Under the pieces are notes generated by a model. The model had not been told where the DNA came from. It made no database searches and saw only the letters and a list, made by a program, of their open reading frames with translations. From Phlyctochytrium arcticum (Eukaryota > Chytridiomycota > Chytridiomycetes > Chytridiales > Chytridiaceae): a stretch of 64,000 nucleotides of DNA. Of this stretch, positions 5,954-29,198 are shown piece by piece. The stretch is taken from assembly GCA_025602905.1 (NCBI GenBank), contig JAHLKI010000024.1, forward strand, positions 1 to 64,000, in the 5' to 3' direction. A program made the position numbers and the translations under genes. Every line of letters starts with the position of its first letter. The stretch's first letter is position 1.

Positions 5954-8900
5954 ATGCGTTGGGCGAGGCGCTTCCTGATATTCGCCATTTTAGCATCCGC
6001 AACGAGTCTGGCAGCAACGACGACGAAAGCAACTTTGGCAGCTGCGAGCATTCCCCCATCCCTTCTAGCAACTCCAACGGTAGCTGCTTCTGCGACCGGC
6101 ATAGGCGCTGCTAACGTTGTCGCTAAAGCCGCTACCGGCTCCGGAAACAACCTCTACATTCCATTCCAAATCTCAAACTTGTCGGCGACAAATCTTACTT
6201 GGAGTGATCCTTTTGGAAGTAGCAATGGAAGTCCTCTGGATCAGCAGAGTGGCTATCACCTCTTGGTCCGGCGCTGGAGCTGGCCTTTGGTGCTGCTTTC
6301 ATATGTCGTGGCAGTATTGGTATGTTCCGAGGAAAGAGATGGTTTGTTTACAGTGATATATCTAACCTTGTTTTCTTCTGCATAGGGCGCATATACCACA
6401 ACTCAAGTGTTAATTCAGGCAGCATCATGCCGGTCGCTCCCTCGGAAGCTGGCATGGCTGGGTTTGGGCTCACTGACCCTCGGCGGGGTAAGTCATGGAC
6501 GCATATGGCTATAGCAGATCTGATGCTAATCTTTCTCCCTTCTACTCAGTGTGGAATATGGTGTTTGCATTTCGTAGGCATCCTGGCTATGGACTTGGGC
6601 ATTCCTGTTACGACCAACATCCTATTGACAGTCATCAGTTTGGTTGTGACAGTTTCCATGACCTTTTTGGTCATTGCCTATGACGCTATATTCGATCAGT
6701 TCATGTGCTGGTACCGTCGTCCACCAGCGCAAACAAATCCCCCGCGCACGCCTGGTTCACTCGAGGCCTCTAACGTGCCCTATCAATCAGTAGCAAGTAG
6801 AGTCTCGAGTGACTCTTACCAAAATGGGGATGTCGATGAAGAAGTCGATGATCCAGACCACAGTCATGAATGCGGCGATACGGATGAAGAACTTTCCAAT
6901 CATACCTTTCAAGATATCATTAACTGCGAGACTGAACCTATCTGGCTAGGCCAGTCAGGAACAACATATCTCGCCGGGCGCTTGTTTTGGACATTATATC
7001 TCACCCTGTCTTGGAACATACTGATCAAGGCATTTTTTCTGGCGTCCTCTCTCTTCACCATGCACTACGTTGGAATGTACGCGATGGAAATGGACGCGGT
7101 CGTTGTATGGAATCCGGCTTTGATTGTATTTTCCTTCTTTGAAGCGTGGGCCATCTGCGTTGTTGCATTCATTTTCAGTAAGTTTTCACCAACAACTGCT
7201 GCCGAATATCCATTAATCCGTTCTTACTAGTGCCCGGTCAAGTGGACTCAAAGCAGCAGCTTGGTTTCAGCATTGTTTCAGCTGCCGGTGCTGCCAGTAT
7301 GCACTACACTGGGATATACTCGGCCACATTCTACTCACATCTGCAGCCCCCATATGATCACGGCGGCTTCCCGCTTTCCCTGTCCTTCCTCGTGAGTGGC
7401 GTTTCCATCGGAACTTGCTTTGTTAGCTATATCTTGCTGGCCAATACAGTGACGCAATCACGGAATCGATTGGCTGAAATGATTACCACAAGGCAACGCA
7501 TGTGGAAGCTAATGGCGCAAAAGGAAGCCGCTGAGCGATCAAATGAGGCGCGCACCCGATTTATATCCATTGCATCTCACGAGATTAGAACGCCTCTTCA
7601 CGCGATCAGCGGGTACACGGAACTTCTCGAGCAGACATCTTTGACAGAAGAGCAGCAAGGCTTTCTGGAAGCAATCAAGAATGGCTGTCATACCATTCAA
7701 CTCATTACCACCAACGTTCTCGATTTTACCAAACTTGAACGCGAGAACAATGCAACCCGCCCACGACTAGTTGACCTGGATGTGCGCAGAATTGCCGGTA
7801 GCGTGGTCAAGAGCTGTGCTCCCATTGCGAAGGCAGGGTCGGTCGACTTGGTCCTGATTGTTTCGGAATCGGTTCCACCCACTGTTTATATCGACGAGAT
7901 TTATTTCACCCGAGTTTTAATGAACTTGGTCAGTAATGCACTCAAATTCTCCAGTAGCGGCTACGTCGCACTTGTTCTTTCAATAGAACCTCTCAATCAT
8001 CACCAGCAGCAGCAATCATCCAATCGCATTGCATCATCATCATCAGCGTCGTCAGTGTCATCCACTTCTATACCCGCGTCAAGTTACCCAACTCCCGCAC
8101 TCACCCCGTCTATCAACGCACCAGCATCATCAGTAGCATCAAAATCTGCCACCGCAGCAAATCCTTCAGCGCAGCCAACGCCCGGCTATACATTTGTCAT
8201 CAAGGTAAAGGACACCGGTGTCGGTATCCCTACCCACTTCCAGCACGCCATTTTCGAACCCTTTCGGCAGGCCGACACGTCCCATACTCGCGAGTATACA
8301 GGGACAGGGCTTGGATTGGCCATCTGCCGACAATTGGTAGAGATTATGGATGGCACAATCGAGTTCAAGTCGAGGGAACAGAAAGGTACAGTGTTTACTG
8401 TGCGAGTTCCGGTTCTGGGTGGCGGAAACCGGATGCCACCAACAGCGCCAATGACCACAACTGGTGGAAATGCCCCCTCGTCGAACGCATCCTCCGTACC
8501 AGCATCTGTGTCGGCTGCTCCGGGATCGTTTCCATTTCAGACATTTGTTCCAGACACTCGTCCCGCCGAGCAAGTCATCAACCTCGCACTGTATTGTTGC
8601 AACCGCAAAACGTTTGACCTTTTGTATTCTGAACTCGTACACCGTGGGTACACGATTGTCAACAAATTCAGCGATTTCAAATCAGCCATCTCAAGACCGT
8701 CAATTGACGCCGACACGGACCTGGTTTGGGCCGACATGGAGTTATTGCGCAACGTGCCCGCCTTACGCACTTTTGCTCACTCAGCCAAGCGGCGGCAAAC
8801 CCTGTTTGTGCCCTATAACGAAAGTGATACGGATTTCGGCGGGTTGGATGGTTTGCCGGACATTGTTTGGATCAAGCGGCCTTTGATTTTGCATGTCATC

Positions 8901-10136
8901 GAACCCTGGATGCGTGATGCGTTTCAACGGAGCAGCAAAGGTGGAGGCAGCAGCAAAGGAGTCGTGCCCAAATCAAGTCATATCTGGTCTGATCGGCAAC
9001 AACTCAAGGATGCGCCATCGGTTTCCTCCATGTTGCAGGGAGATATATGGACCAGCACGGCAGCACTCTCACAACGTCTGGGCATCGAATCAGTCACCAA
9101 AGCGGGCCCGAGCGCGCATGCGTGGGCACCTATACTGGACGGAGGACCATTGCTTCCTGAAAGTATGCTGCAGCAATCACCGGCGATCAGAGGCACGGTC
9201 CCAGTCCGGTCGTCATCTCAGGAACGGCAGGACTCGGTTGATACGTTGCATGGAGGAGACGAGGCGCCAGGTGATTCGAGTCCAACTTTTTCAGGGCACA
9301 ATTCATCACCCATATCCCATCCGTCCAATCAGCAAAATTCCTCAACTCCATCGCATTCCCACGGAGAATGCGTTCCGAATCCGATCCCATCTTCAATTGC
9401 CGCATCATCCCCTAAACCAAACAAACCCATGATCAATACCATCGCACCCTCCGTTCAACATCACCCCCACTCTGAACCTCTCCTCCGCCCGCCCCGCGCC
9501 GCTCTCGTCCTGTCGTCAGCCACAAAAGGCATGATTCTGTTGGTGGAAGATAATCCCATAAACCAACACCTCGGACTGCGTCTGCTCCAAAAACTGGGAT
9601 ACACGGCCCATCTGGCTGTGAATGGCCTGGAAGCCGTTGAAACGTTAGTCCAGCGCCCTGGGGAGTTTGATTTGGTGCTTATGGATAGTCAGATGCCCAT
9701 CATGTCAGGCAGCGAGGCGACTGTGCGCATCAGAGAATTGGAAGCACAAGGCTCTGTGTTTGTCCGGAACCCGCCAGATCCATCACCCTCTCAATCTCCC
9801 ACCAACGGCCTACCATCATCTTCAAACTCTGATCCAGACCCTGAACCCCCGCTCTCAGTCTCCCTCCCCCCACGCGCAGTCTCCGATCCATCATCCATCA
9901 ACTCAGACTACATCCCACCCCCATCAACCTTCAAAGCGACCAACACCCCACTCCCACGCCGTACCCGCATCCCCATTGTAGCCTTAACCGCCAACGTCAG
10001 CGTCGAGTCCCGCCAAGAATGCGCCGAGGCCGGCATGGACTTGTTCTTACCCAAACCGTTCCGGTTAGGCGATCTGGGTACCGCCCTCCACAAAATGCTA
10101 GATCGGCAGGCGGACGTGGCTGTGGATGCATCATGA
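5954..10136 (+). CDS. MHYT-sensor hybrid histidine kinase
   Basis: Exons 5954-6319, 6386-6487, 6550-7177 and 7231-10136 give 1333 residues. The N-terminus starts with a hydrophobic helix (residues about 5-20) and is followed by a multi-helix MHYT sensor with three motif copies: a degenerate LHFVG near residue 162, MHYVG near 326 and a perfect MHYTG near 389. Next come a HisKA domain with the phospho-acceptor His (SHEIRTP, about H482), a HATPase domain (NLVSNALKF, DTGVGIP, GTGLGLA) and a C-terminal receiver (LLVEDN, LMDSQMP with the Asp about 1184, ALTAN, KPF). Ser/Gln-rich inserts interrupt both the HATPase (about 620-683) and the receiver (about 1210-1275). MHYT domains are proposed to sense O2, CO or NO through metal in the membrane. 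The protein should autophosphorylate and pass phosphate to an Hpt protein. Confidence 0.93.
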
Positions 10137-13319: not shown

Positions 13320-15977
13320 ATGCATATTGCCGTCGAGGGGTGCTGCCATGGAGAGCTGGACAAGATATATGCTTCGATCAAGAATGTTGAGAATCGGCAA
13401 GGAATCAAAGTTGACCTATTGCTAGTTTGCGGAGACTTTCAGGTAAATTTTGTGTCTGGAATCCACAAAGAAACGAGTTGATGCTAAGCCAAATCCTTCT
13501 TTGCAGTCCATTAGAAATCATGCTGATCTGGGAGCTCTCGCATGTCCCGAAAAGTATCGAACCATAGGGACGTTTTACGAGTATTACACTGGGGCAAAGA
13601 AAGCCCCGATACCGACAATCTTTATTGGAGGAAACCATGAAGCTTCAAACTATCTCTGGGAGCTGTAAGTGCTTTTCATATATCTGTTGCAATGATAGGT
13701 GGCTCACTCTCTTTCGGCTCAGGTTCCATGGAGGATGGGTAGCACCAAACATTTACTTCCTTGGTTTTGCGGGTGTGGTCAAATTTGGGGGATTGCGGAT
13801 AGGCGGAATGTCTGGGATATACAAGAAACACGATTATGATAGAGGTGAATGGATGGTTCAGGCTCCATTAACAGGCAACCCTGACTAATCAGATGGGTAG
13901 GCTATTACGAAAGGCAACCGTTTAGTGAGGCCCATTCAAGGAGTATTTATCATCTTCGAAAGTTCAATGTGTTTCGAATGGCCCAGGTACGCTACCTTTG
14001 GCACAAAAAACCTGTTGTACTTGTAATAAATCAATTTCTTTTACAGATCACGGAGCCAATGGACATCATGCTTTCTCATGACTGGCCGCGAGGAATAGCC
14101 TTTCACGGAAATACCCGCGCGCTACTGCAAGCAAAACCCTTTTTGGCTGGAGAGGTATGTATAGATATTTGGATCATCGCACTTGGCAACTATTCACAAT
14201 CGATGTTTAGGTCAACACCAATACACTGGGTAGTTACCCAACCGAGTTCCTTCTCCGCCTTATAAAACCTCGATATTGGTTCTCCGCTCACTTACATGTC
14301 AAATTTGCCGCCATCTTTTACCACGATTCTGACGCTAGTGCGCAACGAAGCAATGGCAACGAATCGAAAACTGAAACAAAGGCAATTGAAAACCCCGATG
14401 AAATCAATATTGCAAGTGACGACGAAGACGATAAAATGAACGTTGTAAAGACGGAGGACGAGCCAAAAACCCAAGATGCTCATGTCACTGAAGCTGAAGA
14501 CAAAAGTGCAGATCCTGAAGCTAAAGACAAAACTGCCGACCCTGTAGTCAAGCCGGAAGACGTCACTAGCGAGACGCCAGTGGCGGCGGTGAAGGAGGAA
14601 CCAGAGGCTGCCAAAGAAGTTGTTCAGGCTCCAGAAGCAAAACCCGAAGCCGAGACGGTTGAAGCGCCCGCCGCTGAGAGTGCAGAGAAACCGGCCGAAG
14701 TAGCTGAGAAGGTCATCACCAGCGAAAAAGCGGTCGAAGACTCTACAGCATCTTTTGTGGTCGACACTGAACCCTCCAAGATGGACGAGGATCAACCAGA
14801 TCAGGAGCAGCCTGAACAAGCGTCTGAAGCTGCCCAGGAGACCCAAGCAGAGGAAAAGGCAGGGGAAAAGGCTGCTCCTGCAAAAAAGAAGGAAATTGTT
14901 CGACCCATCCCTCCACAAGTGGATTCTGGAAAACGGGCTGGTATCCCATTTACCAAGTTTCTAGCACTTGACAAATGTCTGCCAAATCAGGACTTCTTAC
15001 AGGTATGCAACTCATCACATTGTGATTCAACGAATTATTTGGATTTACTTCCGAATATTAGATTTTGGATTTGCCAGAAGTGAATGGACCACTAGAGTTC
15101 ACGTATGATGAAGAGTGGCTAGCGATTGTTCGGGCCACATACCATCTCTTTACTCTCTCCTCTGATCAGAAGCAAGTTCCCAAGGACGACGTCATAAAAA
15201 AGTATGGACCTGCCGCAATTTCACTGCCCAACATCGTATCTGATTGCTTTATTTAGGCAAGTAGCTGAAGAGCGGCAGTGGGTGCGAACAAATGTTTCTG
15301 GAAAGCCTGGTGGCTTGTCTATACCGAACGATTTCTGCATGACCGCCCCACCATACGTTGCCGGCTCAAAAAACAAAAAACAAAAAAAGCCTGGTAAGTT
15401 AACAAATGGTGTTTCTCACATATCGGAAGGCCTTGATTGACTTGTTTGTCCAGCACGTCCTTATCTGAACCCCCAAACGACATACTTTTGCGATTTGCTA
15501 AACTTGAAGAATGTCATCAACCCTGATGGTCTGGCCCCGGGCACCACTGAAGAAAAAGAGAAGGAAAAGACGAGTGTGAAGGGAGATGCAAAAGGTGAAC
15601 CAGAGGCCGATAATCTCCAGAAGGAGGGCGGCGAGAGCTCCACTGCAGCAAAGGATGCCACCCAGGAAGCCACCGAGCAGCCTCCCGCTGATAAGGCCGA
15701 GGACGATGATGTAGAGATGGCGCTCGACGAAGAAGTGGAACGCTTTGAGGCAGAAATGAAGATGGATGAGGACCAAGCAGCAGCGGACAATGCTGCGGAA
15801 GACCACCCAGTTCAAAGCACTTCAGATGCCCATCCAAAAGATGCGCCTGCCATAGAAGCTCAGGCCGAATTTGTTGATTTCTCGACCAACCCCACGGCGT
15901 CAGATGCCCGTCCAACGGAAGATGCGCCTGCCGCAGAAACTTCTACCGAGTTTGCCGACCGCCCCAACGGTTGTTGA
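13320..15977 (+). CDS. DBR1: RNA lariat debranching enzyme Dbr1
   Basis: Nine exons (13320-13442, 13507-13664, 13723-13844, 13901-13986, 14047-14154, 14211-15002, 15062-15201, 15257-15393, 15454-15977) give 729 residues. The enzyme cleaves the 2'-5' branch of excised intron lariats in the nucleus. Metallophosphoesterase motifs are all present: GCCHG, CGDFQ, GGNHE, LSHDWP and [10 protein letters not shown]. The family DBR1 C-terminal domain resumes at FLALDKCLP. The start at 13320 ([11 protein letters not shown]) matches the family; an in-frame ATG-like codon at 13242 lies in the leader. Between the catalytic domain and the C-terminal domain sits a low-complexity Ala/Glu/Lys/Pro insert of about 200 residues, and a second acidic tail follows the family domain, so the protein is longer than the human enzyme (544). 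Confidence 0.95.
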
Positions 15978-16191: not shown

Positions 16192-18441
16192 ATGTCGGAA
16201 AAGCTGGGAGGAAAAACCCAAATTGGACCCAGTACACCAGAATTTGGCGCGTTGGAATACGAGCTCCAGCTGGCACTTCAAGCAAGCACCGCTCGAATTG
16301 TCGCGGCCCACTCACTATCCAACCCGCACCTTAATGTCCAATTTGAAAAGCGTTGCAGGGTGAGTTGGTTAATTCCTATTTATCTCCTGCTTGCCGTTAT
16401 CCACTAACAACCATCGACCGATTATATAGGACATTCTTGTATTGTCATCATGGATGGACGCGAGCCTCCTCGCTGGAGTCAATACCGAGGAAGACGTTAT
16501 TCGCAGAGGTTTCCAATTTCCGCCGGGCCAACATGGAATGAAGTTTAGTGTTGGAGCATTCTCATGCCCAAGTTCTTCGTCAGGTATGATGAAGGGATTT
16601 TACGTTTTCTGATGTCATCTAATGACAATGCGCATAGATCGGAAAAACGAGAGCCGGACGCTACGAAAAGCACTCTTGTGTCGTGTTGGGGTTGGCCGAG
16701 CGTTTGCTGCCAATGAAAGTCATGCCGAGTCCATGAGTATTCCTGGCGGGTATGACAGTTTATATCTGAAAGGTACCAGTACATGTAAAGGGACCTGGTT
16801 ACGCGTTGTGCTTAATCCTACTTCGACTCGAACAGATCAATCGGCGAAAAGAGATACCAAAGATTCCGCCAATACATACCGGCATGAATACTATATCAAG
16901 GACACCGCACAGGTTTGTGATTATCTGACTTATTACGCATGGGTACGATACTAACGGCAATTTTTCAGATACTTCCTATCTACTTGATCCATTATGAATA
17001 TGATCCCTCGAAGGAGCGTAAATCACGAGAGGTACGGGTGTCATTGCTCTTAAAGTTTGAGGTGTTTCATGACACTGACCTCATCATGCTGTATTTAGCG
17101 AGCAAATTGTGATAATTGCGAGGAACAAAGCGCAACTGTGTTTTGTACGGCTGACGCTGCCAATCTATGCAACAAGTGTGACGCTCAATTGCATGTATCC
17201 AAATTGGCAAGTCGGCACGTCCGAACACCAATTGGAAAGGTACTCACAGCCTGAAGCAGGAAGTTCCTCTCGACTTGAGACCGCTCACATTGTTTTCAGG
17301 GATCAAATGTGTTTGGACATTGCCGTCATCACCCAGAAAAGTTGATTGAGTTCTTTTGCTCACAATGCCATATTCCCGTTTGTGTTTCTTGCAAAATGGT
17401 CGGAAATCATGCTAGCGGGGAAGCCTCCAAACATCAATTGGTTAGCGTGTCCGAAGCATACACGTCTGTACTTCAGGAAGCACAAACGGTAAAGCCAAAA
17501 CGCGTCGAGTTCGGACGTTGCCCCTCCTAAATCATTCACCAGCATGACCCGATTTTGCAAGAACGGCGGACGGAGATTATCAATCAGATTGCTGCCGTCA
17601 ATTCCAGAGCAAAAGCAGTAGAGAAGATGGGTACTCAAATTGAAACTCAGATCGAGGAAATGTACAAGCGAGCCATGAACGATTTGAGACACATTGTACA
17701 AAAAAAGGTTGGTTTGCATCTCTTTCGTCAGTTCTCGGGGTCGAAAGACTTAAGAAAACTTTCCAGTTGACAATCTTGCTCGGCGATGAGCTGGATTTGG
17801 AGCGCCAACTTGGTGAAATTGAACGATTGGAAGATTTTTTGAGATATCAACAAGATGGCGATGCTACAACATTCTTGTTCAACTGGTCCAAACATCAACA
17901 GTGCCGAGCAGACTTGCATGATGTGCGTCATTTCCGGAATCAAATAGACGTTCAACTGGACGCCAAGGTGCGTTTCTTGGCCAAAATTTGAAACTCCAAT
18001 GTGTGATTTTGTACTAATTGAATTCGGGCAGATTACCGGCAATATCAGCATTGTCATTGACCATGATCGCGCAGCCGTAGCTGTATCTGGGATCCCACCT
18101 CCCGGAAGGCCCATGAAACCCGCTCAAAATCTGGGCAGTCCTGTGGCCAGCACAATCGGCAAAGGTCTTCCCCGAAGCAGGCTTCAGGGGCGCAGAACAC
18201 ATCGACGTATTTCGGTATGTCAATTGACCCAGACCAGCTTTATCTCTTACTAACAGAGGATCCCAGGATTTCTTCGCAGAAACGCTGGGATCTTTCGATC
18301 AGTTGAGCACCGGTCACTTAAATGACGACGAAGATGATGATGACGGTAACAACATTGTGACGTTAATGATACAAGCAAGTATGCTGACTAAATTTCTGAT
18401 TAGATATGTCGGAGGTGTCGGCAGCGGCAGCAGCTTATTAA
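16192..18441 (+). CDS. PARP-like domain fused to two B-box zinc fingers and a coiled coil
   Basis: Eleven exons (16192-16359, 16430-16583, 16638-16912, 16969-17031, 17099-17239, 17300-17488, 17543-17707, 17767-17967, 18032-18214, 18267-18345, 18404-18441) give 551 residues. Residues about 60-215 read like a PARP catalytic fold: IRRGF, LLCRVGVGR, PGGYDS and EYYIKDTAQILPIYLIHY align with conserved PARP strands. At the His-Gly-Thr position I read L-A-G-V (Ala71), so the NAD-binding His is missing, while the terminal Glu (E191 in HEYYI) is kept. B-box 1 (C224 and C227, then LCNKCD and LH) and B-box 2 (GHCRHHPEK, FFCSQC, VSCK) follow in separate exons. Residues 331-450 are helical and probably coiled coil, as in TRIM proteins, but no RING is seen. 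A role in ubiquitin or ADP-ribose signalling is inference. Confidence 0.8.
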
Positions 18442-18480: not shown

Positions 18481-20178
18481 TCAGCTCATCATGACTTTGC
18501 CCTTCTTCATCTTTTTGCTCTGGTCTCTCTTGAGCTGCTTCTTGCGCTCTCGTTCCTCATGTTTACGTTGTTCTTCTGGGCTCAACTTGGCCACGAGCTG
18601 GCTTTGATCCTTTTTCTGCTGAAACTTTTTCTGGGCCAGCTCCTGCGCAAACAACAGTTAGAAAATATGTACTTGCGGATATTTACAAGAGAAACTCTAC
18701 CTCTTTCCGCTTTTGTTCTTCAATACGGCGTAAGGTGACCTCAGCAGCTTGTCGCATTTTCAGACTTTTCGCAAGAGTGTCTTGGCTCAGGCGTCCACAT
18801 TGCCCAACGTAGTCGACAATGGCTAAGAGCAGGTCCACACTTGCAACAATTGCCTCGCTCTCGCGGTCGTCGAGATTTGCGAGATTTGGTAATTGTAGTG
18901 TCATGGTGATTGTCTTTCCAGCTTGACTTATATCCTCGAGACTGTGATTATTGAGTCAGTACACATCGTAGTGACAAGACTCTAGACCACTAACCTTTCC
19001 GGTTTGACGGTGGGCAGATCCGTCAGAATAATCTGCTCAATTAGTGTATGTAATGGCGTGCCGTTTCCATTCCGGTCCAAGCCAATAGAGGTGTACAAAG
19101 CACGTCGAATTCTCTCCTCCTCCCAGAGGCCCGTGACAAACTCCTTGGAATCACAGCGGAGTTGATAGTCACCGGGGAAAGGTGCGCCGGGGAAGCTCCC
19201 ATCTCTGGCGGCCGTAAATTCATCCTGTTGAAAGTCTATTAGCCAAGGACCTCACAAACATTGGGATAGAAACGGCAAGGTACTTGCCAGATCCCATCGC
19301 TGCTTCTTGACATCAGCCGCGATCTTCTTGTGTAAAATGGAGAATACAACGGGATCAGACTCCTCCTCATTGAGCGTAGCGATTAATGTCTGTATAACTC
19401 TCGTATGAAAAAACTAGGTCTGCAAGGAACGTCCTGATCATAGTTACCAGAGTATCTTTAGCCTTTTCTGGTTGCACAATGTCGAGAAGCCATTGGTATA
19501 TGTCATATCGGGCCGCCAGCTGTGATGGGAGATCAGTATCATTGTCATAACAATTGCCTTGCTAACACCACCCACGTGTAGCTGTCCGTAAACGCTCTTG
19601 ACATGTCGTCGGCCACTTGCGAAGAACACGTAATCTCTCGGACCATCACGGGTCAGCTTGTGTCCCGGTGCATTGCCCACCGATGCAAAATTGTGTTCCC
19701 AAGTTGGAAGCGTCAAGGCAATCCTGCCCCCAAAAACATTCAGCTTATTACGCGATAAGCAGATGATACAAAGTACACACCAGTTGCGAGCGATATCATT
19801 GGTTTTTCCCTTCCCGACGTAGTGCGAAACCAAGTAAGCGATTGTGCCGGCAACCAGGAAAATCTCCAACTAATAACCCTCGGAATATCAGTTTGGGACC
19901 TAGTCCACGACAAAAACATCGATCTTTACCGTAAAATCGGAAATTTTGTTGTCATCCCAAAAATTCCCAGCTGTGGATGCCTTGACACTGCCCGCAGTAT
20001 CCAACGGTATCTGATTCCTGCCCAACTTTCGAGTGCTGACTGGTGGTGCATAGTCTACGTCGTCATCTTCGTCAAAGTCGTCATCGCCGTCCTCAGAGGA
20101 GGACGCGCAGGCGGTATGCGCCAATGCCAAAAAGGCCAGCAACAGGAGAGTTAGCCGGAAGATCTGGTTGCCCCGCAT
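18481..20178 (-). CDS. CCDC47: CCDC47-like ER membrane protein (PAT complex subunit)
   Basis: Eight exons from 20178 down (20178-19930, 19869-19781, 19723-19576, 19519-19448, 19389-19288, 19224-18995, 18941-18701, 18642-18481) give 430 residues. CCDC47 forms the PAT complex with Asterix, which protects transmembrane segments during insertion at the ER translocon. A signal peptide (FRLTLLLLAFLALAHTACA) precedes an acidic lumenal run (EDGDDDFDEDDDVDY). One membrane helix (EIFLVAGTIAYLVSHYVGK) is followed by N-D-I-A-R-N-W, as in the family. The C-terminus is a basic coiled coil (ELAQKKFQQKKDQSQ...KKMKKGKVMMS) that in the human protein contacts the ribosome. The intron at 19287 starts with GC rather than GT. 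The stop lies 39 bp from the convergent upstream gene's stop. Confidence 0.93.
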
Positions 20179-21768: not shown

Positions 21769-24700
21769 TTATGCTATTACATTACTTGAGACGCATGCAA
21801 AGATTATTCCAGCAATGCAAAGTTGTCCGAAAGGTCCATCTTCCAATTCAAAACTCACAGCCCATCGATTCTCCCTCACACTTTTTCGAACCAGATTTTT
21901 CCCCCAAGCTTCCCCGATGGAGCGCTGCTCACGAGACTGGGGATTTCGAGAAACTAAGATGTATTTTTGCTGCAAAAGGTCCCCGCTTAACGAAAAGGAT
22001 GGTGGGGTTGGTGATGGTTCAGCTGGCGGCGTCTTGACGGCTTCTCGCGCACGCCCCTGCATAAGCGGAGTGCTTGCGGCAGAAGGATTGGACTCCTGGG
22101 CAGGGTCGAGAGTCAACTTGAACTTGCTGGCCCACTTTAACGTTCCCATCCCTGCACCTGTAGCCGTTGTAACGATGAATGGCGTGGTCGCAACGGGATC
22201 AGAGGGCTTGGAAGCTGGGTCTGGGAAAATTTCCACAGAGGGATTCTGCGCCCCCCATATAGGTCGGAGATCCTGTATGGTGATGACTCTGCAAAATAGC
22301 GACAAACGTTTATTAAAAATGTGAATGTGAGGTTAACTTCAGAAGTTTTACCGTTTAGTATCCCAGAACTTCAGCCCAATGATCATTAAATCTTTTGAAT
22401 CATCGCTCATCAATTGTACTTTGCGCACTTTCTCTTTCGTGCCGGATATCGTAAGGTGGTATTTGATTCTTGGGATGGTAGGATCTCGAATGACTTTGAG
22501 GGAACTGTCATCTAACATGCTGTTTCGAGCAACATCGGACCGTCCGGGCCGCTCCAATGTGACTTCCCGTACGGGTTGATTAGCTGGGGCCACAGAAGAG
22601 CTGTCTCGTCCACCAATCTGACTGGTTTCGTTCGGGTGCGTTGTGCTTGATGGGCTGCGCTGGTTCCTATGGCCATTGTTTAGACATATTCCCACTGTAT
22701 ATAGGAGCCTGCGTAGTTTACCTAGAGGCCGCGGCCGCCAGACTCTCAGATATTTTCACAGTACCTGATCCCATGTCGCCATGAGACTTGGTGAGCCTTG
22801 AATAAGAAGTGCTGGTTAGCATTCCTTTGAAATGCACTGACATATTCTGAAAACCTACTTTGATCCCACTTGCTCCGACGGTATGGGTTGTCCATCAAGC
22901 GACAGTATCACAATTTGCATCTTTATGCACCGACGACGAGCTGATAATAGTGTAAGATTTTTGACTTCCGGAAACAATGTAGTACCATACCTTCTGGAAG
23001 GTTGTTTACAGCAGCACCTTCGTAATCCTTTCCCAACTGCACATAGTCCCCACTTTTAAGCTCAACGGAGCTGCTCTTGACCCCAGCATCACTCATTCGA
23101 ACTCCATTGAGGAACGTGCCAGAATTGCTTCCGCAATCTTGGATAAAGATCTTTCCGTCCTTTGCGAAAATATCGCAGTGATTGCGCGACACCACTTGTG
23201 ATGCAAAACTCTTGAAGTTCTCGCGAGGATTCCCACGTCCCAAGCGGTAAGGAGTGGCAAGATTGAGTGTTTGCACGGGAAATTGATTGTTCATGGGCAT
23301 GAGAACAGCATTTGGTATTGGAGAACCTCCAATTGATGCCTGCGGCTGCTCGGATTTGCCTGCTTCAATTGTATCTGGCCCGACAACTTGCGTTGGCAAA
23401 ACTTCCTCAGCGGCATCATTATGTGATGTCGATGGCTGCTTCGCGGTCGTGGCAGCCTGATCGTCAAGTTGGTCAGTGCTCCCATAATCGTTTGACTCGG
23501 CTGGGAACTCGAGATCCCCAAGTCCTAATGGAACGGCTAGTGACATGGAGAGACGCTCCAAAGCTTTCAAGGCGGTATCGATGACTTGTGAATGCTTCTG
23601 CACACTTTGTCGGCTCGGACGACGACTACCTTGAACAGATCTCTCTGCTTCAATAGAATCGTGTACTTGCCGACCCACATCAGTAGGAGCTAAATGTGCC
23701 TCTGATGTCTGGGACGCGGATGGTTTCTCCAAATGGCTTTCTTCGACATTTTTCACAGCGCGGCTTGCGTTATCCTCGACGTGCGAACTTTGTTCAGACT
23801 GACCCAACAAGGACGACTTTCGACTTCCAGATTGGTTTGTCCTGTCCGTTGTTGACTGGATTCCGGCATCGACCGTCGGAGGAGCACTGTCCCCCTGGAT
23901 GGACGTGGTCGAAATCCTGTAACCTTCCAAAAGTTCGGAAAGAACACGCGACTGACCATTCGAACCTTGCTGCGCATCCACTAATTCGTTTGAGCTCAAA
24001 GGTCTACCGCGGCTCTTGGCCACATTTTTAGCATCCTTCGAGCCAATGGATGCTCTGTGACTCAAAGCTCGTAAGGAATCTAGCATTTCTTCTACACGGC
24101 GCGTGGATTCCTCTGTGGATTCATCTCCTTCTTCATCTGACTCATTTATGTGCTCTGGGAGGGATATTTCTGCCTTGTCATCGCCTTCCAGAGTAGCGGT
24201 GCTCATGCCGAATTGCGTATCTTTCGTTAGGCCAAGGAGACGCGGGTCTCTTGCGGCGATCCGAGTAGAATCTGGCTCTCGGTGTACTGTGCCAAGCGGC
24301 TCTGCATGCTGATTATCGTACGACCCTTCAGTGAGCTCGCCGACGGACGGCCTAGAGCCACCTGACTTTCGGCCTCTACCCTCCGCCTCGGCCTCCGCAT
24401 GTTCGCGCGGTTCCTCTGCTACGTAATCTGGACTGGTTTGCGCAAGTGCATCAGCCATCTCTTCAGGTTTGGCTGCGCTTGTGCTTGCACTTTGGGAGGA
24501 GGAGGGGGCATTGTGGATATCCTCGGTAACATCGCTCAATGGTTGCGCAAAACTAACAGATGCGTCAGGTTCGTCAGGTACTGCAGGGACTGTTGTTTGT
24601 AGACTCTCCTTGCGTTCGGTCACTGGGCCCCATTGTGACTCAGTGTTTTCCGGACTCAAACTCTCCTGCCGATCCTTCTCCCCGTTTTGATGATCGCTTT

Positions 24701-27700
24701 GAGTCGGAGCATCTTCCTGCTCGCTGTCTATGAGGCTGGCGTCATAATAAGCATCATTTGTCACAGCAGGCAACTGAATATCTCCGCGCCCAGTCTCAAC
24801 TGCAGAATCACTATCCATATCAGAATCGTCCTTCCCAATCATTTCTGCTGGTTCTTCTTCCTTTGTTTCCGACTCTTCGAGTCCATCGTCGGTATTGCCA
24901 TAACCCTGTGGCGCGTCTTGGTCAACGCTCGTATCCCCTAGAGGTGGAAGTAATGTGGACGAACCGGGCTGATTGCTTACGATCGTTTCTTGGATATTTT
25001 GAGACGGCGTATAAGCTGTTTCAAATTGATCTTGGCTGTTTTGTGGGGCATGTGAATCGTTCACTCGAGAGGGCACAACTTCTTTCAACGAAGACTTTCG
25101 GGAAGACAGGGACTCCCTTTCTTGCGCGAGTGAAATTTTGCGTCCAATGGACGGGCTGCCTCCCTGCCAGGACGCGTCTTTCGAAGTAGTCGAGGGATTT
25201 CGCGAGTTATTTGCAGTTCCGTCGTTCGTTGTGCTTGTTTCTCGTAGAGACTGTTTCCTTGAAATAGGTTGTTGCTCATCTTCTCGAGCTGGCAAAACTC
25301 TGCGCAGGCTAGAGGGGCTTTGCTCTACCGCTGACTGGTCTTTTCCAGCAGTGGAACTTTTTCTCAAGAAACTGGGTGGACTTCCTACTTGACTAACTTG
25401 ATCCTTCCCAGTAACTGAGCCCTTCCTCAAGAAGCTGGAAGGGCTCCCCTCCTGGACGGAACTTTTTCTCAAGAAGCTGGAGGGACTGCCCTCTTGGGAC
25501 GATTCTCCCGCCTTTACCGACCCTTTTCTGAAATCGAGGGAGGAGCTACCCTGGCCGGATTGATCATTTGAACTCTTCATCGAAGCCTTTCGCGAGACGG
25601 GTGCACTACTTGAATCTTCGTCCTGCTCCGCGATTGTGAATTGGTGGGTGGAATCTGCATGCTGGGTGGATTGCGCCTGGGGTGTCGGACCTGTATCAGA
25701 GTCGTAGTTACCCATCGAAGATGACTCGTCGTTCTCGCTAGGATCCTCCGCGAGGAAGGCCGAGAAAGCGGGTGACGACAGCTGATCTTCCTGCCTTTCC
25801 GAAAAACCTCCGGATGCAGGGGATTGCCTTGATCCGGAACGAGCGGAGGAGCGACTCATAGGCCGTGCCTTCAATTGATTGGCCGATTCAGTCTCCTCGT
25901 TGATTTTGCTTTCAAAGAATTCTGCGGCCCTTCGCACTGAAGGGACATAAAGTAGTGACGCACGATTTTTGGCCTTTTTCGCTTTGGCAGCTGCAGCAGG
26001 ATCGGACGGCTCGGGTGTAGCAGTAACCGGGGAAGGGCCCGGCGATGCATCTCGAAATGCGGGTCGTAGGTTGCCAAACTTTGCGGTTAGCGGGGACGGC
26101 TGCGCACTCGCTGTTTGCGCATGTTGTCGATGCACCTGCAGGGGCGCTTGGGATTGTACCTGCGGTTGAGACTGTTGCTGCGAAATAATTTTCGCACGGG
26201 CCTCTGAAGTTGCCGTTCCTATGCCAAACTTGGTGTTCACAGTAGGAGCCATCCGCTGCGTCACGCGTCCGGTCGGATTGTCAGCGTCTAGTCGTGGACT
26301 TGTGATTGCGACTGGTCTTGCCGTGGATAGCTGGGGAATTGATGCTTTCTCTTCGCTAAATTTACCAGCTTTTGCAAGAGGCAGAGGCGTCGGAACATTT
26401 TGTGAGTCGGTTTCGGACACACTTGAATCACAAGTTGCCATAGTCTCCAGTTCCAAGTTCGGCGCCACCATCGACTCCTGCTCTTGCACATATTCATTTC
26501 TTGGTACACCCATGTCATCCTTGAATGGAGCTGAAGTCTCGCGTGACGTGATTGATGACTTTGCAAGTGAAGGTCTTTCCGAATCGCTATCCTTGAGCGA
26601 AGCTGCTGCCATTTTGGGACTGTTTTGCCCTTGAGTGTTTTCCGCACTTGCCTCAGACGTCGTCAAAGAAGGTCGCTCCAGATGTGGTCCAATCGCTGCA
26701 GCGGGATGAGAAGCAACCTTTTCCGTGTCCTGTACCCTTGGCTCTACCACATCTTTTAGATCCTCCACCGAGGATACGCGCGAGCTTGACAAACTTCGTA
26801 AAGGCTTTCGCGTGAGAGACGGAATGGGTGGCGATTTGTTACCCGTCACTACTTTGGTTTCGGAATCCAAAATGTAATCCAAGCGCGCAGCTACTGCTTC
26901 CAACGCCTGTGCGGCGGATTCGCGACGCTCTTGAGAAGCGACGGGGACATCAACGGGCGCCACCACTTCCAAAGTCTCTCCAGCAACTGGGAAAGACTCC
27001 ATACGGAAAATTCCCTTAATTTTTTCTGTGCTGTTGCGAACAGATGCCCGCGTGCTCTTTTTACCTTCGTTCTCATTGCTGAGATTTCCTTTTGCATGCT
27101 CGACATTGGGACTTTTTGGAGTGGGCTTTTCTTCAGGTCCTTGCTCGCTTTCTGATTGTTTTTTATCCCTGAGTTCGACAGTCTCGTTACGGAAAGCAGG
27201 GGAAGCGTCGTTTTGCGCAGCAGCAAAGGTTGGAGATGCAATATGGGCCGTTGTTACTGTCGAAATGTCGCTCTCATTCAACGAGGCGGTTACAGAGAGC
27301 GCCTGCTGATGGGGTCGCTCTTCATTCAAAGAACTTGTTTCCACAGTTGGGATACTAGGCGCTTGGCGTTCAAATCCTCTCGGAGGCTGCTGGGCTCCAG
27401 GCCCCTCCCGATCTTTCGACGCGTCAATTTTGCCTTCGGAATCCGTTCCTCCTACTGGCCCTGCAACAGGTGATGCGTCTCCTTCCCGTTGCGATTCCAA
27501 AACGTGCTCAATATGCAACTTCACAACGTGCTTAATAGCGGTCAGTAGCCTCAAAATGCAAAACGGGAAATTGTATTCGTGCAGTTTCAAATCTCCTTGA
27601 CCATCCACCACTTGCACCACCACTTGTCGCAAAGCTTCGGTGTGTTGACGAAACTCTTCGGCAACTTTAGCGCGACCTGTAGCCGGATCTAGAGACACAT

Positions 27701-27878
27701 TCAAGGATGTAGTCAAAGCTTGAATCGTTTGCCATTGCGATGAGAGGTTTGAAATGCTTTCGGCTGATCGACTAGCTGAATGCTTTTGAAAGGTAGCCAC
27801 CAGAGTCTGTGTCTCCCGGGCTAACTGATCTATGATGTTATTGACGAGGGAGATGTGCCGAGCCACGGTATCCGCCAT
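21769..27878 (-). CDS. Giant FHA-domain protein with disordered Ser-rich repeats
   Basis: Five exons (27878-22991, 22940-22859, 22796-22722, 22666-22352, 22288-21769) give 1959 residues. The N-terminal 150 residues look like a folded helical domain (LVNNIIDQLARE through LLTAIKHVVKLHIEHV). About 1400 residues of Ser/Glu/Gln-rich disorder follow, including four to five tandem copies of an SFLRKSSV/GSV motif (DNA about 25350-25510) that resembles basophilic kinase sites. An FHA phosphothreonine-binding domain lies near residues 1540-1650: RLGRG, SRNHCDI, CGSNSGTFLNG and the closing PEGARRRCIKMQI across the first intron. A basic, possibly beta-rich tail (YHLTISGTKEKVRKVQLM) ends the protein. The start is ATG at 27878. 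A phosphopeptide-binding scaffold is likely; the pathway is unknown. Confidence 0.85.
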
Positions 27879-29198
27879 GATGATCAATCAAGGAAAGAAA
27901 GCGGTTGACCGCGGCGACAGCAAGCTGAAAGATAGTTCCCAGACTTCGCTTGGTCGGAGCGTAAATGAACCACGAAGGATATGTACTTTTTGTCGCTAAA
28001 GAAGATCCTAAACTGATTGATTGCGGAACCTGTCGTCGAGTTACTTTAAGGGTAATCCACCGTTTTATCACTCAGGAAAAAATCTACCAATTAAATAAGA
28101 CGCAACTTGCAGATGCAGCAGCTTTCATACCGGTCCTAGATTAGCAACAATTGCCATTAGACCGACTGATTTTTCAGGGTCAGGATCTGGGTTAGAGTCT
28201 GATGAGGGCCAAATTCTATTTTTAGCCACATGTTTGCGCTTAACTTTGCAGCAGCTACATTTCAAGTCATTTCAAAGCGCTATCCAAAAGAAATCTGGGC
28301 CAAACATGGCTCTTAGCTAGCAGCATCTTGGGCACGCCCATCCAGAACAACGTTTAAACTAGAGATCGTCGAAGAAACAGATGAGGTGGAGACAATAGTT
28401 ACACATACGTGGGGATCATTTGCGCATGACTTAATTTATCCTACCAATAGATTGACCATTAATTATTTTCCTTCAAGATCTAAGAAAAGCATTGCCGAGT
28501 GCCAGTTATGTCTCTGAGATTTTGCATCAGTGATTTAAAGCAGATTTTTCCGATGAACGGCGAGAGAATTTCCGACTATTCTATAATCTTCTGTACAGCA
28601 TCTGCGAAACCATCTATCCGGACCTAAAGTACTGGATCAGTACTGGAATCAGTACTGGATCAGTCAGTTCCCGCAGCAAGGCTATCGCGGTGCACGTATC
28701 ATCCCTCGCCTTCGCTTTCAATCTTGCGGATAGCTCATTTATCCCGTAAATACTTCCTTGGTATAAGACTGTGAAGATACTGTTAGCTATATATTTACCA
28801 CCATTCACGACAAAAGGTAGGCATCGTCACCAAATGTAATTAAACAATTGATGCATTTTATCAGCAACTCAGAATTCATGGATCTCTAAGAGATTCTAAT
28901 ATTTTTGAGATGTTTTTCATGTTTGATCTGTGAAAACTTTGGGACCTGATGATCATCTTGGTTACATGCGGAGCTTGAGCGATCAGTGTTCAAATTTTTT
29001 GTCATCGCCATGGTGGGCAGTTGATTGATCTGTACTGAAGGTGGAGGATACCTTACAACGCCAATGTTCACTTTCCGCAAAAATATTTAAAAAAAAATTG
29101 GACGAAATTGAACAGCAGATATATTTTCGTTTCGCCACTCCAACGACAGCTAATCGGCTATCTAAAATTTATCCTCTTTACACTGAGTCCTAGGAAGT
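27879..29198. other. Intergenic with a short triple repeat
   Basis: This 1.3 kb AT-rich spacer carries the FHA gene promoter and the 3' flank of the seven-helix protein gene. No coding frame is supported. At 28629-28665 a unit of 11-12 bp (gtactggatca / gtactggaatca / gtactggatca) occurs three times in tandem. Confidence 0.4.

Follow-up and report, generated by a model that had tools for sequence, protein, structure and literature searches.

A fungal relative of the Toxoplasma ring proteins PCR4 and PCR5 with a predicted dead PARP-like domain, and a CGP-like gene in the same genome

Introduction

In Toxoplasma, the preconoidal P2 ring has heterodimers of PCR4 and PCR5 at its core (PDB 9ya0; Zeng 2025, PMC12819142). 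According to the same report, the two proteins are deeply embedded in the P2 ring and contact CGP and PCR10, both of which combine Clu and TPR parts, while the ring carries a formin and a myosin and is proposed to be where actin flow starts. Deletion of Pcr4 or Pcr5 is described as leaving the rings absent, and CGP and Pcr4 are described as interdependent, with depletion of either removing the other from mature parasites (PMC12663574). That paper also reports that the first assembly of the ring in daughter cells proceeds without Pcr4 or CGP, so PCR4 and CGP may stabilise the ring instead of founding it. Plasmodium orthologues are named by gene number for three of eight ring components, two of which are PCR4 and PCR5 (PMC11005440), and the third is formin 1 according to a table in PMC12819142.

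Preconoidal rings are treated as apicomplexan structures in the work consulted here, and PMC12663574 calls CGP ‘conserved within apicomplexan parasites’. The words ‘PARP’ and ‘B-box’ do not occur in the main text of PMC12819142. The main text of the conoid proteome paper (PMC7951837) contains neither the PCR4/5 gene numbers nor any chytrid, and that of the fungal flagellum atlas (PMC13358043) contains no conoid, B-box, Apicomplexa or Toxoplasma. Among the open-access papers listed in literature searches, we saw no report of such relatives, either for PCR4/PCR5, CGP or an apical complex beyond the Apicomplexa or for PARP, B-boxes and flagella in chytrids.

Results and Discussion

A spliced chytrid gene of the PCR4/PCR5 family

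We found a gene of this kind in Phlyctochytrium arcticum. It lies in the first 64,000 nucleotides of a contig, the whole stretch that was analysed and is called the window here. When its 11 exons are joined, the gene reads as a single open frame of 551 codons plus a stop, and all ten introns (52-70 bases) are GT-AG. Its features, in window positions, are as follows.

16192..18441, + strand: whole gene in 11 exons, spliced frame, PCR4/5-like protein of 551 aa
16192-16359, 16430-16583, 16638-16912, 16969-17031, 17099-17239, 17300-17488, + strand: exons 1-6
17543-17707, 17767-17967, 18032-18214, 18267-18345, 18404-18441, + strand: exons 7-11
16234..17010, + strand: N-terminal domain (residues 15-213), homologous to the N-terminus of PCR4, predicted pseudo-PARP (ADP-ribosyltransferase-like) fold
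16445..16447, + strand: Ser62, tentative His-column residue in a profile alignment with some PARP letters filled in by analogy
16472-16474, + strand: Ala71, the His-column residue chosen in a preliminary description
16559..16561, + strand: Phe100, Tyr column of PARP in the HHalign profile alignment (GMKFSVGAFS against GYMFGKGIYF)
16886..16888, + strand: Glu191, Glu column of PARP
17105..17233, + strand: B-box 1, CONSTANS-like, from Pfam and comparison with PCR4/PCR5
17318..17449, + strand: B-box 2, from Pfam and comparison with PCR4/PCR5
17459..18064, + strand: coil-like region (residues 321-463), aligned to PCR4 up to residue 463 and to PCR5 up to residue 415
18065..18441, + strand: C-terminal tail (residues 464-551), Pro/basic and then acidic, beyond the PCR4/5 alignments

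In a search of 177,635 distinct PDB sequences, the two best matches of the protein, over residues 15-463, both belong to entry 9ya0: PCR4 (E=6.3e-55) and PCR5 (E=1.2e-34) of Toxoplasma gondii. The next matches were far weaker: B-boxes of CONSTANS at 6.5e-13 and worse, and TRIM63 at 1.6e-4. The similarity to PCR4/5 exceeds a B-box effect, since residues 1-220 alone find PCR4 (E=1e-19) and a two-sequence profile of the N-terminal domain also reaches PCR5 (E=1.2e-5). The homologous parts follow the same order in the fungal protein and PCR4, namely the N-terminal domain, B-box 1, B-box 2 and a coil-like region to residue 463, and it is homology in this order by which we assign the gene to the PCR4/PCR5 family. 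One block of the PCR4 alignment (residues 187-463) bridges the last part of the PARP-like domain and the B-boxes. This supports one gene rather than two and, with the open frame and the regular introns, bears out the eleven-exon gene that had been proposed from the sequence at first sight.

Over residues 187-415, the fungal protein is identical to PCR4 at 77 of 228 positions (34%) and to PCR5 at 65 of 227, and PCR4 and PCR5 are identical to each other at 74 of 226. The fungal protein is about as distant from PCR4 as PCR4 is from PCR5. An unduplicated gene of the type from which the two paralogues arose would show this pattern, although three sequences cannot prove it. PCR4 (TGME49_201220, 9ya0 chain AB) has the same order of parts and the same type of ligand residues in 603 aa, as against 551. 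It differs in having Asp where the fungal protein has Glu191; the fungal tail falls outside the alignment, and the fungus is not expected to have a conoid. The homology to PCR5 (TGME49_242320) extends over parts of its N-terminal domain, B-boxes and coil region, but PCR5 measures 1,073 aa and has acquired a GTPase-activating domain at its C-terminus (PMC12819142); no such domain is among the Pfam families listed for the fungal protein.

Judged by its sequence, the gene is a fungal relative of a known structural protein of the PCR4/PCR5 family. The preliminary description had regarded the architecture as absent from described families; it is that of PCR4 and PCR5, whose structure was published in December 2025 (PMC12819142), and the original observation is real but misnamed. 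With moderate confidence we read the gene as a PCR4/PCR5 family member whose protein is likely to be a structural scaffold subunit with a predicted dead PARP-like domain.

The only full-length relatives detected in the PDB are those of Toxoplasma, as would be expected of contamination or of a recent transfer from an apicomplexan-like organism. Such an origin is extremely improbable, as the gene lies inside a contig of at least 180 kb (C24), carries the ten introns described above, has neighbours in the window that include a CCDC47 homologue and a HisKA kinase, and has just the 34% identity to PCR4. No relative was recognised, at the sensitivity of each search, among 31 stretches of viral contigs that fit a pattern with the protein, or with the alignment of the fungal protein, PCR4 and PCR5 (A2) among 22 stretches of viral contigs and 39 of GTDB genomes.

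A PARP-like N-terminal domain without the triad

The N-terminus had been described as a PARP-type fold. PARP (PF00644) is the only Pfam family listed for residues 1-220, over residues 111-209, with E=0.0042 and 17.1 bits against a cut-off of 26.7. When the region was divided, residues 113-220 still matched PARP (E=0.0045) and residues 1-113 matched no family. For the joined N-terminal pieces of PCR4, PARP is again the only Pfam family listed (E=0.073); a shorter piece of PCR4 matches none. In HHalign comparisons with a PARP reference profile of four sequences (human PARP1 and three PARPs of the fungal genome), the profile of the fungal protein and PCR4 scored 28.9 (probability 22%, E=0.001), or 30.6 (probability 30%) under another column rule. 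None of 400 column shuffles reached the real score, the highest being 22.1, and the reversed profile scored 18.3. The alignment, over residues 77-211, is colinear and ends in the EY..D..Q region. In a separate run, adding PCR5 to the profile lowered the PARP score slightly, to 24.5 with three sequences from 25.3 with two.

These results have to be weighed against the reading that the domain has a non-PARP fold and the PARP signal is convergent. The Pfam score below the cut-off is consistent with such a fold, as are several other results. The profile of the fungal protein alone scored 18.29, no better than the reversed two-sequence profile (18.33), and in an earlier HHalign run, with the PARP row partly filled by analogy, 1 of 60 shuffles came near the real score (27.9 against 29.6). 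The PDB search with the two-sequence profile of the N-terminal domain did not find PARP. A single-sequence model of low confidence (pLDDT 49), in which exon 2, intron 2 and exon 3 were read through, gave 145 Foldseek matches at E≤10 and none at E≤0.001 (best 0.33), with PARP absent among the best 50 of the 145; taken by itself, a model of such low confidence favours neither reading. On the other side stand PARP as the sole Pfam family listed for both the fungal and the PCR4 N-termini, the shuffles of the two-sequence profile, and the colinear alignment that finishes in the EY..D..Q region. We consider a non-PARP fold quite unlikely. The PARP resemblance is weak but above chance, and the mixed scores and controls make an ADP-ribosyltransferase (ART) fold probable, not more; to this extent the proposed fold can be retained.

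An active PARP has an H-Y-E triad, which is not intact in the fungal protein. The triad His had been thought to be replaced by Ala71. There is no His within residues 47-90, so its loss is independent of the alignment, but the position of the column is uncertain: it falls on Ser62 in the earlier, longer profile alignment, and the corrected alignment starts at residue 77, short of the column. The Tyr column is Phe100, in the MKFSVGA stretch that had been singled out for it. The Glu that had been described as kept is indeed present as Glu191, but PCR4 has Asp and PCR5 has Leu at this place. The PARP catalytic domains of human PARP1 and of the genome's own PARPs differ from the fungal domain in the His and Tyr columns and from the PCR4/5 family in the Glu, and the three other PARPs of this genome keep WHGS, FGKG[IV]YF and NE[YF].

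Since no PARP triad residue is common to the fungal protein, PCR4 and PCR5, we predict a pseudo-ADP-ribosyltransferase, whose likely role is that of a packing module. The domain is probably neither an enzyme nor an ADP-ribose reader, and the PCR4/PCR5 family as a whole is best read as pseudo-ADP-ribosyltransferase. This would suggest why PCR4 and PCR5 look as they do, a former ADP-ribosyltransferase fold having been turned into a building block. The ‘NAD-blind’ character proposed in the preliminary description agrees with the lost triad and would be predicted from it. The accompanying role of a ‘reader’ finds no support, the best relatives being buried structural subunits of a ring.

B-boxes and limited likeness to TRIM proteins

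The B-box family (PF00643) matched the protein with E=6e-15, and both B-boxes score above the Pfam cut-off of 24.1, with 31.4 bits for 17105-17233 and 39.7 bits for 17318-17449. In B-box 1, the ligand-type residues C224, C227, C236, D239, C244, C247, H252 and H260 are all common to PCR4 and PCR5. In B-box 2, C275, H278, C287, C290, C295, C298 and H304 are common to both, and H312 is kept in PCR5 only, with Arg in the PCR4 alignment, so that 15 of the 16 ligand-type residues are identical in the three proteins. Other His residues of this stretch (H274, H277 and H291) are not conserved in both PCR4 and PCR5. No RING is among the six Pfam families at E≤10 for the 551-aa protein, confirming the tandem B-boxes without a RING; the sequence agrees with a PARP-like domain lacking the triad and followed by two B-boxes and a coil-like region.

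TRIM proteins have a RING ahead of their B-boxes, and none is listed by Pfam for the fungal protein. The family profile A2 matches B-box 2 and the coil of TRIM3 with E=2.7e-7 (profile positions 88-244) and those of TRIM72 at E=0.005 and worse, so this half of the protein may share a deeper TRIM-like ancestry. Besides those of PCR4/5, the B-boxes of CONSTANS are the nearest to B-box 1 among solved structures. The fungal protein has B-box zinc ligands in common with CONSTANS and with TRIM63, MID1, TRIM3 and TRIM72, but its match to the TRIM proteins is far weaker than that to PCR4/5. The label ‘TRIM-like’ may suit B-box 2 and the coil, but agrees poorly with the lack of a listed RING and with a B-box 1 nearest to those of CONSTANS.

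The protein might instead be a PARP protein of TRIM-like type, a reader of ADP-ribose or of targets in which the PARP-like domain recognises a ligand and the B-boxes and coil build a signalling platform. Its PARP-like N-terminus with two B-boxes and no RING, and the A2 matches to TRIM3 and TRIM72, are in keeping with this, and the three PARPs with intact motifs suggest that ADP-ribose is probably made in this organism. Yet structural subunits of a ring are by a wide margin its nearest relatives, TRIM proteins come no nearer than the TRIM63 match with the protein alone, and the triad columns differ among the fungal protein, PCR4 and PCR5. A signalling reader of this kind is very improbable.

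A CGP-like gene and a single PCR4/5-type gene

We then investigated the rest of the genome (31.5 Mb, 91 contigs). The CLU family occurs at two places, a canonical one on contig C2 (E=5.9e-81) and a divergent one on contig C6 (E=2.3e-14).

Contig C6 of the genome (G000), about 1268524-1272915, - strand: divergent CLU-TPR gene (L029/L030), in open-frame pieces with rough splice points

The C6 protein has the CLU, eIF3_p135 and TPR families of Pfam, and the open frame directly upstream encodes a PH domain that possibly belongs to the same gene. Its best PDB match is CGP (E=6.3e-10 over 150 residues), and it also matches PCR10 (E=5.5e-7), ranked after TPR matches of kinesin light chain. As a control, the canonical CLU protein did not find CGP at E≤10 and found PCR10 only at 0.015. 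The canonical search listed no CLUH structure, so the PDB may hold no CLU relatives besides CGP and PCR10, and we therefore compared the shared segment directly. The divergent protein and CGP gave 51.4 bits, the divergent and canonical proteins 21.6, and the canonical protein and CGP 5.7; the CGP segment was picked by the divergent protein, which favours that pair, and the PDB control with the canonical CLU is free of this bias. The C6 protein seems to be closer to CGP, the parasite ring protein, than it is to the canonical CLU of its own genome, and on this ground we place it with the CGP/PCR10 family. No filamin domain, the kind found in the P2 subunits FLM1/2, was found in the contigs of the genome, a result that speaks against the ring proposal made below.

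Only one PCR4/5-type gene was found in the genome, although a divergent split gene could escape detection. The two paralogues of the Toxoplasma heterodimer have no counterpart in this single gene, but we do not take their number as defining the family. A candidate second copy at C6:176877 (E=0.034) is antisense to an apparent 7TM receptor gene, by a reading of the frames. Another candidate, a B-box on contig C15, belongs to an apparent RING/B-box gene at C15:659829 (L021), which has RING, B-box and MATH by a reading of the frames and which we take to be TRIM37-like.

A possible ring at the flagellar apparatus

The PCR4/5-like and CGP/PCR10-like genes place both ring-core families in an organism that is not expected to have a conoid. 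The surprising part is this pairing of a PCR4/5-like gene with a CGP-like gene. The genome also has radial spoke protein 3 (RSP3), a p25-alpha protein (on contig C17) and 11 matches to Fungal_trans, which together indicate a fungus with, very probably, a swimming stage in its life. There are precedents for the sharing of components between conoid and flagellum, as described in work on SAS6-like (PMC3697468) and on the conoid protein apicortin, which is reported from flagellated fungi and only one non-flagellated fungus (PMC12189498). Apicortin, composed of p25-alpha plus DCX, is a precedent for a conoid protein in flagellated fungi, but is unrelated to the protein described here.

The coil-like region would dimerise the protein, presumably as a homodimer instead of a PCR4/PCR5 heterodimer because only one gene was found, and the degenerate ADP-ribosyltransferase fold would offer a packing surface. 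By binding the CGP-like protein, such a dimer may assemble into a repeating ring or collar. This would most likely sit at the zoospore flagellar apparatus, given that the fungus has axonemal genes and that no apical complex is expected. With relatives of both families in a fungus, the ring machinery probably predates the parasites in which it became known. We further propose, tentatively and at somewhat less than an even chance, that the P2 ring core (a PCR4/5 pseudo-PARP B-box scaffold and a CGP/PCR10-type CLU-TPR partner) may be an ancient ring complex of the flagellar apparatus, which would predate the alveolate-opisthokont split, have been kept by swimming fungi and have been taken over by apicomplexans as the foundation of their invasion apparatus. 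That relatives of both families occur together in one fungus that has flagellar genes offers a direct test of the long-debated flagellar origin of the apical complex.

Alternatively, the protein might be a true PCR4/5 relative whose scaffold acts away from the flagellum, for example at a cortical, actin-nucleating or secretory site. The formin and myosin of the Toxoplasma ring, with their proposed part in actin flow, would suit such a role. So would the lack of RFX X-box-like sites in the 400 bases upstream of the gene and in those upstream of the PH start beside the CGP-like gene, in a simple scan that is weak without a positive control (about 0.04 sites expected by chance per 400 bases). Against it, flagellar genes are present in the genome, and the reported distribution of apicortin follows flagellated fungi. 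We regard a scaffold away from the flagellum as unlikely, though by no means negligible, and retain the flagellar-apparatus ring as our working proposal.

For apicortin itself, we recognised no p25-alpha/DCX fusion in the genome. The doublecortin (DCX) gene at C5:445641-446845 of G000 (L037) has three DCX matches and a long charged tail but no p25-alpha nearby, and p25-alpha is on C17.

Neighbouring genes in the window

The frame adjoining the gene upstream (15441-15977, + strand) is an acidic C-terminal frame with no Pfam family at E≤0.001, and the convergent neighbour downstream (19444-19869, - strand) contains a stretch of CCDC47 (PAT complex). Further upstream, the frames at 6223-7230 and 7182-10136 (+ strand) encode a series in which MHYT domains precede HisKA, HATPase and response-regulator domains; positions 6223-10136 are probably one spliced gene for a hybrid histidine kinase with an MHYT sensor. 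An open frame of 1,654 aa at 22923-27887 (- strand) is rich in Ser and Glu and has an FHA domain at its end.
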